DNA of 64,000 bases from Alcanivorax sp. DP30 (GTDB lineage: Bacteria; Pseudomonadota; Gammaproteobacteria; Pseudomonadales; Alcanivoracaceae). Position numbers and translations under genes: made by a program. Below, piece by piece: positions 6,592-8,206 of this stretch; position 1 is the stretch's first letter, and every line of letters begins with the position of its first letter. The notes beneath the pieces are model-generated. The model did no database searches and was not told the DNA's origin. It saw nothing but the letters and a program-made list of their open reading frames with translations. The stretch is taken from contig NZ_WTUY01000003.1 of assembly GCF_009882945.1 (NCBI RefSeq), positions 1 to 64,000 on the forward strand. The letters run 5' to 3'.

Positions 6592-6807
6592 CTTCTAGTC
6601 TGGCACAGGGCTGGGGTTACACCATTGACCTTGCGGCGCAGACAACACGTTGGCGCGCCCTACTGTTGGGCATTTTTTGGCCCGATCCCACCTCTACATG
6701 TTTTGCTGCAGGGGTTATAGCCGTGCACTATCCCTGCAAGCTGGATTTTTGCTTGCAGCGATGGCGGACGCTGGTTAGTCTGATGCCATCTTGAACAGGA
6801 AAGATTG

Positions 6808-6921
6808 ATGATGAACGCGATTGCCACTTCACAACTGCACCAAACCGCCTCTGTGTTGGTTCGTGCTGCCGTGTCTGTCGCTTTCTATTTCGGGTATTGG
6901 TTTAGCCGCTCGCGCGCCTGA
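6808..6921 (+). CDS. Aromatic amino-acid leader peptide of the DAHP synthase gene
   Basis: A 37-codon reading frame starting ATGATG after an AGGA ribosome site (6797-6800). Residues 26-32 are FYFGYWF: six aromatic residues in seven codons (6883-6903), covering phenylalanine, tyrosine and tryptophan. Six codons later the TGA stop (6919-6921) lies on the edge of a 9-bp hairpin, and an intrinsic terminator follows at 6967-7001, all upstream of the DAHP synthase gene. This is the layout of trp- and phe-type ribosome-mediated attenuators: when charged aromatic tRNA is scarce the ribosome stalls on these codons and the terminator is avoided. Reading and layout are seen directly; the mechanism is inferred. 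Confidence 0.85.
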   Translation: MMNAIATSQLHQTASVLVRAAVSVAFYFGYWFSRSRA

Positions 6922-6937
6922 CTTTACCCAGGCGCGC
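6912..6937 (+). promoter_or_regulatory. Attenuator hairpin over the leader stop codon
   Basis: GCGCGCCTG (6912-6920) pairs perfectly with CAGGCGCGC (6929-6937) around an 8-nt loop and includes the leader stop codon. The right arm could instead pair with CGCCTG at 6949-6954. The arrangement matches the 1:2 pause hairpin and an alternative 2:3 pairing of classical attenuators. Confidence 0.7.
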
Positions 6938-6966
6938 CCGCTACGGGACGCCTGCCGAAACCTCTG

Positions 6967-7001
6967 AAAACCCCGGTCGGTATCCCGCCCGGGGTTTTTT
7001 T
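6967..7001 (+). terminator. Intrinsic terminator in the DAHP synthase leader
   Basis: AAAACCCCGG (6967-6976) pairs with CCGGGGTTTT (6989-6998) around a 12-nt loop and runs into a T tract ending at 7001. It sits between the leader peptide and the DAHP synthase gene, so it must be passed for expression and is the attenuating terminator. Confidence 0.85.
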
Positions 7002-7050: not shown

Positions 7051-7125
7051 ATGTATCGATATCAGCCGACAACACTGCAGCTCAAGGGCCTCTGGCCACA
7101 GATCCTTTTGACATTACGACGATGA
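7051..7125 (+). CDS. Possible second small upstream ORF
   Basis: After the attenuator terminator a GGGAGAGACACC sequence precedes an ATG that opens a 24-codon frame (MYRYQPTTLQLKGLW, then PQILLTLRR) ending 40 bp before the DAHP synthase start. The ribosome site is good, but the product has only two tyrosines and one tryptophan and no family resemblance. It may couple translation to the downstream gene or be chance. Confidence 0.3.
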   Translation: MYRYQPTTLQLKGLWPQILLTLRR

Positions 7126-7165: not shown

Positions 7166-8206
7166 ATGCAACAGCTTCAGAATAGTGCTATCAGCAGCCA
7201 CACCGATGAATCCCGGCGCAGCCTGCCGCTGCCCACACCATCGGTGCTGCGCGAGCGCCTGCCCGTGGACACCGATCTGGCCCGGCAAATTGCCAGCCAC
7301 CGCCAGACCATCCGTAATATTCTCAACGGCGACGATGCGCGGCTGCTGATCATCACCGGGCCCTGCTCACTTCACGATCCCAAATCGGCGCTGGAATACG
7401 GCCACAAGCTCGCTGCACTGGCGCAAAGCCTGTCTGATCGCGCTTTCATCGTAATGCGTGCCTACGTGGAGAAGCCCCGCACGACGATAGGCTGGAAAGG
7501 CATGCTTTACGATCCCCATCTGGATGGCAGCCATGACATGGTCACCGGGCTGAATGTGTCCCGTCACCTGTTGCGGGATCTGGCCCGGCTGGGTTTACCG
7601 CTTGCCACGGAGCTGTTACATCCCATGGCGGCGGATTACCTGGGCGACCTGCTCAGCTGGGCGGCCATCGGTGCGCGCACCACTGAATCACAGGTTCACC
7701 GGGAAATGGTCAGCGGCCTGCCTATGCCCGTGGGCTTCAAGAACGGTACCGATGGCAGCATCGGGGTAGCCTGCGATGCCATGGGCTCCGCCGCCCATCC
7801 ACACAGCCACATGGGCATGGACGAGCAAGGCCATGCCGCCCTTCTGCAAACCGCCGGCAACCCGGATACCCACCTGGTGCTGCGCGGCGGCCATGATGGC
7901 CCCAACTACGATGCCGACAGTGTTGCGCAGGCGGTGGCAGCGCTGCAGCAGCGGGGTCAGAATCCACGTCTGATTGTGGACTGCAGTCACGCCAACAGCG
8001 GCAAGGATCCATTGCAGCAGCCTGCGGTGATGCGCGATCTGTTGGCACAACGGGCCGCAGGTCAGCAGCACATTGCCGGGGTGATGCTGGAAAGCCACCT
8101 TGAGGATGGGCGCCAGGGCCAGGACGGCGAGCTGGCTTACGGGGTGTCCATCACCGATGGGTGTCTCGGATGGGAGAAGACCTGTGCGTTGCTGGAGGGA
8201 GTTTAG
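7166..8206 (+). CDS. aroG: 3-deoxy-7-phosphoheptulonate synthase (class I DAHP synthase)
   Basis: A 346-residue cytoplasmic enzyme joining phosphoenolpyruvate and erythrose 4-phosphate in the first step of the shikimate pathway. LIITGPCSLHDP at about residues 61-72 carries the metal-binding cysteine (C67), followed by MRAYVEKPRTTIGWKG at 97-112 and KNGTDGS; the metal-binding histidine lies in DCSHANSGKDP. Length and motifs match the AroF/AroG/AroH type; which amino acid inhibits it cannot be told. ATG at 7166 follows AAGGAAAG. Upstream lies an attenuator with a leader peptide rich in Phe, Tyr and Trp codons. A heptad repeat array begins within the stop codon. The isozyme letter is a convenience. 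Confidence 0.94.
   Translation: MQQLQNSAISSHTDESRRSLPLPTPSVLRERLPVDTDLARQIASHRQTIRNILNGDDARLLIITGPCSLHDPKSALEYGHKLAALAQSLSDRAFIVMRAYVEKPRTTIGWKGMLYDPHLDGSHDMVTGLNVSRHLLRDLARLGLPLATELLHPMAADYLGDLLSWAAIGARTTESQVHREMVSGLPMPVGFKNGTDGSIGVACDAMGSAAHPHSHMGMDEQGHAALLQTAGNPDTHLVLRGGHDGPNYDADSVAQAVAALQQRGQNPRLIVDCSHANSGKDPLQQPAVMRDLLAQRAAGQQHIAGVMLESHLEDGRQGQDGELAYGVSITDGCLGWEKTCALLEGV

Follow-up and report, generated by a model that had tools for sequence, protein, structure and literature searches.

Upstream of the gene for a class I-alpha 3-deoxy-D-arabino-heptulosonate 7-phosphate (DAHP) synthase in Alcanivorax sp. DP30 lies a short leader with an open reading frame (ORF) that carries the codon run Phe-Tyr-Phe-Gly-Tyr-Trp-Phe (FYFGYWF). 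We analysed a window of 64,000 nucleotides (nt) that holds both (contig NZ_WTUY01000003.1, positions 1 to 64,000), together with leaders from related genomes. Comparison and folding models indicate that this leader is very probably a ribosome-mediated transcription attenuator and, with somewhat less confidence, that it senses phenylalanine, tyrosine, and tryptophan alike. The terminated leader RNA appears, from its sequence, to be a homologue of P15, a catalogued small RNA (sRNA) of Pseudomonas. If this is true, shortage of any one of three amino acids could act through a single leader, in the manner of an OR gate, at the step where their common pathway begins, and the Rfam family P15 gains a concrete, testable function as a DAHP synthase mRNA leader whose transcription stopped early. 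Such a leader would limit flux into the pathway and may matter for engineering Pseudomonas toward aromatic compounds. The features concerned, all on the forward strand, are these:

6753-6781, forward: likely promoter, TTGCAG (6753-6758), a 17-nt spacer and TAGTCT (6776-6781), with an expected start at about 6788.
6796-6803, forward: ribosome binding site of ORF1, CAGGAAAG, read from the sequence; relatives have a match like a Shine-Dalgarno (SD) site.
6808-6921, forward: leader ORF1, 37 sense codons, ATG at 6808, a second ATG at 6811, TGA at 6919-6921, product MMNAIATSQLHQTASVLVRAAVSVAFYFGYWFSRSRA up to the stop.
6879-6995, forward: match to Rfam RF00627, "Pseudomonas sRNA P15," over the full length of the model (1-119), 61.4 bits, E 9.2e-12.
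6883-6903, forward: regulatory codon run F-Y-F-G-Y-W-F, marked out by its single genome match, its conservation and the stall window.
6892-6900, forward: segment 0, the 3′ part of the codon run, GGGTATTGG.
6912-6920, forward: segment 1, GCGCGCCTG, overlapping the stop codon of ORF1 and pairing with segment 2.
6929-6939, forward: segment 2, CAGGCGCGCCC, partner of segment 1 or segment 3.
6944-6957, forward: segment 3, CGGGACGCCTGCCG, partner of segment 2 or segment 4.
6974-6987, forward: segment 4, CGGTCGGTATCCCG, antiterminator partner of segment 3 and also part of the terminator.
6966-7001, forward: intrinsic terminator between leader ORF and gene; 6966-6980 pairs with 6985-6999 and the T tract runs to 7001.
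7166-8206, forward: class I-alpha DAHP synthase gene, 346 amino acids (NF009395, 506 bits; TIGR00034 aroFGH, 440 bits).

The original prediction had described a 37-codon leader with a ribosome site and the run FYFGYWF, a perfect 9-bp hairpin over the stop codon, and a terminator with a T tract, and direct reading bears out all of these, the hairpin pairing 6912-6920 with 6929-6937. Two further claims stand in part. The alternative pairing to 6949-6954 does exist, with 6929-6934 as its partner, but it is not the antiterminator, which pairs 6944-6957 with 6974-6987. The leader is indeed followed by a DAHP synthase gene, but the name aroG given to it is loose, since the protein scores 380 with the AroG equivalog model against a cutoff of 568. 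The ORF1 peptide ends in AFYFGYWFSRSRA before its stop, and its run is singular: the degenerate pattern TWYTWYTWYNNNTWYTGGTWY matches the whole 3.6-Mb genome once, at the leader, and six aromatic residues in seven occur in just 1 of 1067 short ORFs in the window and in none in 30 Markov-random windows. Among relatives, an SD-like match of at least four bases precedes a leader start codon at 38 of 41 loci.

The codon run is conserved far beyond this genome. We collected 60 distinct leader sequences and excluded one, from Paracoccus (L099), that had been chosen by text pattern, leaving 59 to be counted. Codons -5, -4, and -3, numbered from the Trp codon (0), encode Phe, Tyr, or Trp in 46, 49, and 57 of these leaders; the same positions in the two other frames give counts of 9, 8, and 0 and of 10, 14, and 28. 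Positions -1, 0, and +1 are partly demanded by the selection pattern, and we excluded them as evidence. Phe and Tyr codons swap among relatives while the run itself persists, so that the conservation upstream of orthologous DAHP synthases despite changing DNA, which had been named beforehand as a test, is what the comparison returns. The leaders include a family that we call Pseudomonas-like (f21), since its members resemble those of the named Pseudomonas loci L040 to L042. Another family (f37), tentatively Halomonas-like, accounts for 9 of the 60 and departs from the common form: its run reads YWF followed by GVP or similar, the stop comes 12 to 15 nt later, and the stem of segments 1 and 2 (1:2) is still kept.

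Two sets of rival helices can be drawn in these RNAs. In an alignment of 33 of the 60 leaders (A1), helices 1:2 and 3:4 together have 86.5% of cells paired, with 5 pairs changed on both sides, a value reached by 1 of 500 shuffles, and a covariation score reached by none of the 500. The opposing set, 2:3 and the terminator, has 91.6% of cells paired; none of 500 shuffles equalled its 23 cells changed on both sides, and none equalled its covariation score. Versions of the helices slid out of register fall lower on every measure, for both sets. The coding sequence appears to bend to the helix as well, the 1:2 pairing being equalled in stability by fewer than 5% of random synonymous recodings at 28 of 29 loci. 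The 211-nt leader of the window folds with a z score of -3.9, and 1 of 200 shuffles folded equally well; a simple terminator scan found 2 sites where 1.6 were expected, so that the scan alone is no evidence. The ORF, its codons, the terminator, and the rival helices are plain from sequence and comparison, as is their conservation. The aligned leaders show an antiterminator that excludes the terminator and has covariation behind it, one of the marks of a ribosome-mediated attenuator. The folding model resembles the his operon attenuator, with segments 0 to 5 and the registers 0:1/2:3/4:5 and 1:2/3:4.

We simulated the passage of the ribosome by folding the RNA only as far as the start of the terminator, before segment 4, with the ribosome represented as a footprint and two footprints tried at the stop codon. 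In 56 of the 60 leaders (L030, L099, L137, and L141 were omitted), segment 3 is held by upstream RNA with a mean probability of 0.72 if no ribosome is present, 0.20 if one is stalled at Trp, and 0.85 or 0.78 if one is at the stop, depending on the footprint; it is held more firmly at the stop than at the Trp stall in 56 of 56. We also stepped the stall codon by codon through 55 of the 60 leaders (16 Alcanivorax-type, 32 other short-type, and 7 f37-type). Across the 48 short-type leaders, segment 3 is freed by stalls at codons -5 to +1, most deeply at -3 to 0, and not at the stop codon. The Alcanivorax-type means trace this trough: 0.59 at -6, 0.39 at -5, 0.10 at -3, 0.05 at -1, 0.08 at 0, 0.43 at +1, and 0.83 at +2. 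In the window's own leader the probability is 0.81 without a ribosome, about 0.3 at -5 and -4, 0.01 to 0.03 at -3 to 0, and 0.47 at +1. The simulated low stretch coincides with the aromatic codon run, and in the simulation the antiterminator strand is freed whether the ribosome stalls at a Phe codon, a Tyr codon, or the Trp codon. Changing the footprint by 3 nt shifts the low stretch by one codon, and shuffling segments 1 and 2 abolishes it (18 leaders).

A mechanism may be proposed on this basis, in which we infer the co-transcriptional order of events, the ribosome footprint, and the response to each amino acid. RNA synthesis would begin near 6788, with a ribosome translating ORF1 behind RNA polymerase. 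Under a shortage of charged tRNA for Phe, Tyr, or Trp, the ribosome would stall in FYFGYWF and mask segment 0, leaving segment 1 free to pair with segment 2 and segment 3 free to pair with segment 4; no terminator would form, and the DAHP synthase gene would be transcribed. With all three amino acids ample, the ribosome would reach the stop codon in segment 1, segments 2 and 3 would pair, and the 4:5 helix would form as the terminator. Untranslated RNA would also tend to hold segment 3, through 0:1 or other upstream pairings, and so favor termination. A his-type anatomy with sensing codons for all three aromatic amino acids implies that any single shortage should open the gene. The joint sensing of Phe, Tyr, and Trp that the original prediction put forward is thereby supported, by computation only, from the conservation of the run, the promoter-like boxes upstream, and the stalls at all three kinds of codon.

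A number of results weigh against this interpretation. The attenuator is a computational prediction, and the shuffle tests on the alignment take no account of relatedness. Of the five measures taken for the set of 2:3 and the terminator, two fail to stand out from the shuffles, 44 of 500 attaining its number of pairs changed on both sides and 450 of 500 its number of pair types. The 0:1 pairing fares poorly, a median of 7.7% of recodings being as stable and fewer than 5% in only 8 of 29 loci. In the seven f37-type leaders the trough begins near -7 (0.41), ends at 0 (0.32), and leaves out +1 (0.88), and the window leader holds segment 3 at just 0.44 to 0.46 for stalls upstream of the run, which makes for a blunt upstream edge. 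When segment 4 is included and the RNA folded to equilibrium, the 3:4 helix has a mean probability of 0.79 in the stall state versus 0.67 at the stop (0.83 versus 0.82 in the window); the stall state lies above the stop in 55 of 56 leaders, but only 3 of 56 exceed 0.3 when stalled and fall below 0.3 at the stop. Since at equilibrium 3:4 forms in both states in many leaders, the model works only if the helices fold in a given order: 2:3 must form first and persist. We set aside full equilibrium folding to segment 4 as a discriminator, since it hardly separates stall from stop and the contrast is clear only with RNA that ends before segment 4.

The alternative that survives best, although we consider it unlikely, is a classical attenuator in which only one or two of the amino acids matter, Trp and Phe for example, and the other aromatic codons are passengers. 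The aroR leader of Corynebacterium glutamicum contains Phe-Tyr-Phe and reportedly answers Phe limitation and not Tyr, according to the portions of PMC11802643 available; a Tyr codon there reportedly brings no Tyr response, so codon content does not prove three-way sensing, and for this reason we rate the sensing of all three below the attenuator itself. Stalls at -5, -4, and +1 also have less effect in the simulation than those at -3 to 0. Set against these points, the deepest part of the stall window in the leader studied here includes a codon of each kind (Phe, -3; Tyr, -1; Trp, 0), and the codon at -3, which lies outside the partly selected positions -1, 0, and +1, is the one kept aromatic in 57 of 59 leaders.

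The three-amino-acid attenuator draws further support from its relation to P15. The window element is, judged by sequence, a homologue of RF00627, and we do not file it as a member because its 61.4 bits lie under the gathering score of 70, which also counts on the unfavorable side; the model matches the named Pseudomonas loci L040 to L042 at 102 to 124 bits. RF00627 matches occur in 42 of 390 genomes of the order, 20 of those 42 over the cutoff, and in 0 of 14 control genomes. A DAHP synthase follows directly on the same strand in 41 of the 42 (40 by tblastn, where L144 and G030 are the same locus, and G010 from its coordinates). At the exception (L140, 33 bits) the match lies over a terminator and the end of a protein ORF and looks like chance. 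At all 41 RF00627 loci adjoining DAHP synthase we found an in-frame aromatic run, defined as TGG then Phe, with at least 4 of 7 residues aromatic and a stop within 14 codons; the same criterion was satisfied on 0 of 41 antisense strands and at 4 of 58 other DAHP synthase loci.

These counts bear on a second alternative, that P15 and its homologue are trans-acting small RNAs and lie in front of DAHP synthase only by coincidence. P15 was reportedly first described by Livny in 2006. RF00627 is entered in the Rfam table as a "Gene" (sRNA), its model beginning inside the leader ORF, and PMC2527527 and PMC2375449 regard P15 as an sRNA that previous work had detected, the latter placing it in a list of such sRNAs. 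We think this alternative very improbable, given that 41 of 42 positive genomes place a same-strand DAHP synthase after P15, that 41 of 41 encode the aromatic run, and that the printed consensus reads through the codons for GYW to a stop codon. The released leader RNA may have an added side role.

Slightly less credible still is a leader peptide that acts in trans or as an arrest peptide and not as a codon sensor. In its favor, conservation extends past the aromatic residues into the C terminus that follows the run, which in most short-type leaders reads WFS, then H, R, or Q, then xRA. The same stretch is also segment 1, however, and its synonymous choices favor the 1:2 helix; moreover, the Halomonas-type leaders keep that helix with a different peptide (GVP and onward), and F and Y interchange. 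A metabolite-binding riboswitch, a possibility raised briefly for P15 in 2008 on the grounds of its synteny with a thiamine pyrophosphate (TPP) riboswitch (PMC2527527), we hold to be the least probable of all, since the ORF is conserved, the pathway codons are positioned at the switch, and alignment A1 shows by eye no conserved unpaired pocket besides the codon run.

In an alignment of 11 Alcanivorax-type loci, chosen among 17 genomes of the genus and read by eye, the boxes CTTGC and TA..CT are alike in 11 of 11; a strict consensus scan found no sigma-70 site and did not report the promoter-like boxes at 6753-6781. Because these conserved boxes sit 5′ of the leader, transcription is not expected, on computational grounds, to begin only downstream of 7001, the finding that had been named beforehand as one that would refute the prediction. 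Upstream of the boxes lies a dyad, ATAG-N7-CTAT (6717-6731), present in 8 of the 11 aligned loci by eye and a possible regulator site. The genome encodes a paralogous DAHP synthase (contig C20, positions 696600-697565; L002) that is 53% identical, and the same scan found no aromatic leader within 600 nt of it. A search confined to TyrR returned no genome match over the curated cutoff of NF008085 and only partial matches of up to 256 bits against 576. An attenuator would explain how the entry step is controlled in a bacterium where no TyrR was found, on the evidence of this one genome.

A second upstream ORF (uORF) lies between the terminator and the gene:

7051-7125, forward: second uORF, MYRYQPTTLQLKGLWPQILLTLRR up to the stop, 3′ of the terminator, with a ribosome site; counterpart of the Tyr-rich WRFS uORF of relatives.

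An ATG-initiated ORF with a ribosome site occupies this interval at 47 of 60 loci. Related second uORFs with WRF write it as TGG CGA TTT in 28 of 28 cases, with AGC next in 24. The 12-mer TGGCGATTTAGC has 21 sites in 20 of 25 selected genomes, 23 of which were chosen for having a P15 element, against 4 for the reversed control; by coordinates, 20 of the 21 sites lie just 3′ of the P15 element. Five genomes lack the site, the window's among them, its second uORF having Tyr and Trp codons without the 12-mer. The 12-mer recurs, however, in uORFs that precede DAHP synthases in Actinobacteria. A 15-mer, TGGCGATTTAGCTAG, was found in 5 of 296 genomes in the phylum of a Solirubrobacteraceae record (reversed control, 1) and with G774 makes 6 sites in Actinobacteria (L179 to L184, position 1501 after orienting), each ending a uORF. 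A DAHP synthase starts within 150 nt of all six, of class I-alpha in two (tblastn) and I-beta in four (PRK08673 and TIGR01361, both over cutoffs). The absence of TGGCGATTTAGCTRR from 49 further genomes, mostly of other phyla, speaks against a universal element.

It is conceivable, though we lean slightly against it, that these DAHP synthases carry this Tyr-rich WRFS uORF with its fixed nucleotides as a second cis element, forming with the FYW attenuator a two-stage sensor whose second stage would act through a specific RNA or codon sequence. Control of translation of the gene by the second uORF was considered and gained no support: of 45 uORFs that fit the residue pattern, 42 were analysed (L040, L134, and L143 had no gene start passing the filter), and at these 42 loci the predicted access to the gene's ribosome site showed no consistent difference between the stalled ribosome and the one at the stop. 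Nor was a terminator with a T run seen by eye after the second uORF in 22 loci. In family f37 no more than 5 nt separate the stop of the second uORF from the start of the DAHP synthase gene, or the two overlap, at 8 of 8 loci with an accepted start (L133, L135 to L139, L141, and L142; L134 and L143 have none), which suggests that the two are translationally coupled there. We found no description of the WRFS uORF in the literature searched.

A model of our own (R1) matched 24 of 369 genomes of the class at E of at most 0.01. Six of these have a class I-alpha DAHP synthase at the match, including G578 and G685, which belong to a family (f207) from outside the order. The remaining 18 have best scores of at most 33.2 bits, and the loci fetched for them, all but three weak places, show no DAHP synthase of the I-alpha type, the one type looked for; we take these 18 as chance matches. 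Among 54 other DAHP synthase loci with enough sequence upstream, 9 carry a short sense ORF in which at least 6 of 10 residues are aromatic; the antisense count is 1, and shuffles predict 0.25. With the threshold lowered to 5 of 10, the counts are 9 sense and 4 antisense. Distant bacteria with such aromatic-rich ORFs before a DAHP synthase are represented by L080, L086, L100, L078, L102, L047, L071, L097, and L098, one example being DSFYFYFRFYFYTW in Desulfobacteraceae. By eye, the ORFs at L080, L086, L100, L078, and L102 are followed by a terminator-like hairpin with a T run. Leaders with aromatic codons ahead of DAHP synthase may have more than one origin.

The trp, pheA, and his attenuators of Escherichia coli each sense one amino acid and govern branch pathways rather than the common entry step. 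The leader described here would work as they do, most like his, and would differ in serving three amino acids at the common entry step. P15 itself is like the window element in sequence, along the whole of the model, and in the DAHP synthase downstream; it differs in the below-threshold score of the window element and in being typed by Rfam as an sRNA gene. The literature searched yielded no description of P15 as an attenuator, although a related prediction may be contained in the work of Panina 2001 and Vitreschak 2004 on attenuators of proteobacteria. Text searches of PMC8297930, PMC3460626, PMC9308961, and PMC4263517 returned no mention of P15, and the portions of PMC1262725 examined contain no aromatic leader except trp.

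Aromatic-codon leaders in front of DAHP synthase are, as far as the available parts of the sources go, a kind already known. The aroR-aroF attenuator of C. glutamicum is reportedly the subject of Neshat et al. 2014. As described in the available portions of PMC4046766 and PMC11802643, its Phe-Tyr-Phe leader peptide controls a DAHP synthase operon by transcription attenuation, which likens it to the window's leader; from these descriptions, and without a comparison of sequences, it differs in its response to Phe and reportedly not Tyr and in that no Trp codon is mentioned. The uORFC-13-1 motif of Acholeplasma, before aroF, likewise joins a predicted uORF with aromatic codons to an adjoining terminator, and differs in belonging to another phylum and, in the part of PMC8632094 available, in having only Phe codons named. 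Two uORFs of shikimate genes with F and Y are also described in the accessible portion of PMC6429828. Against this background, what is new within the literature searched is the reading of the P15 family as such an attenuator, with Trp in the run, and the coincidence of the simulated stall window with the codon run.
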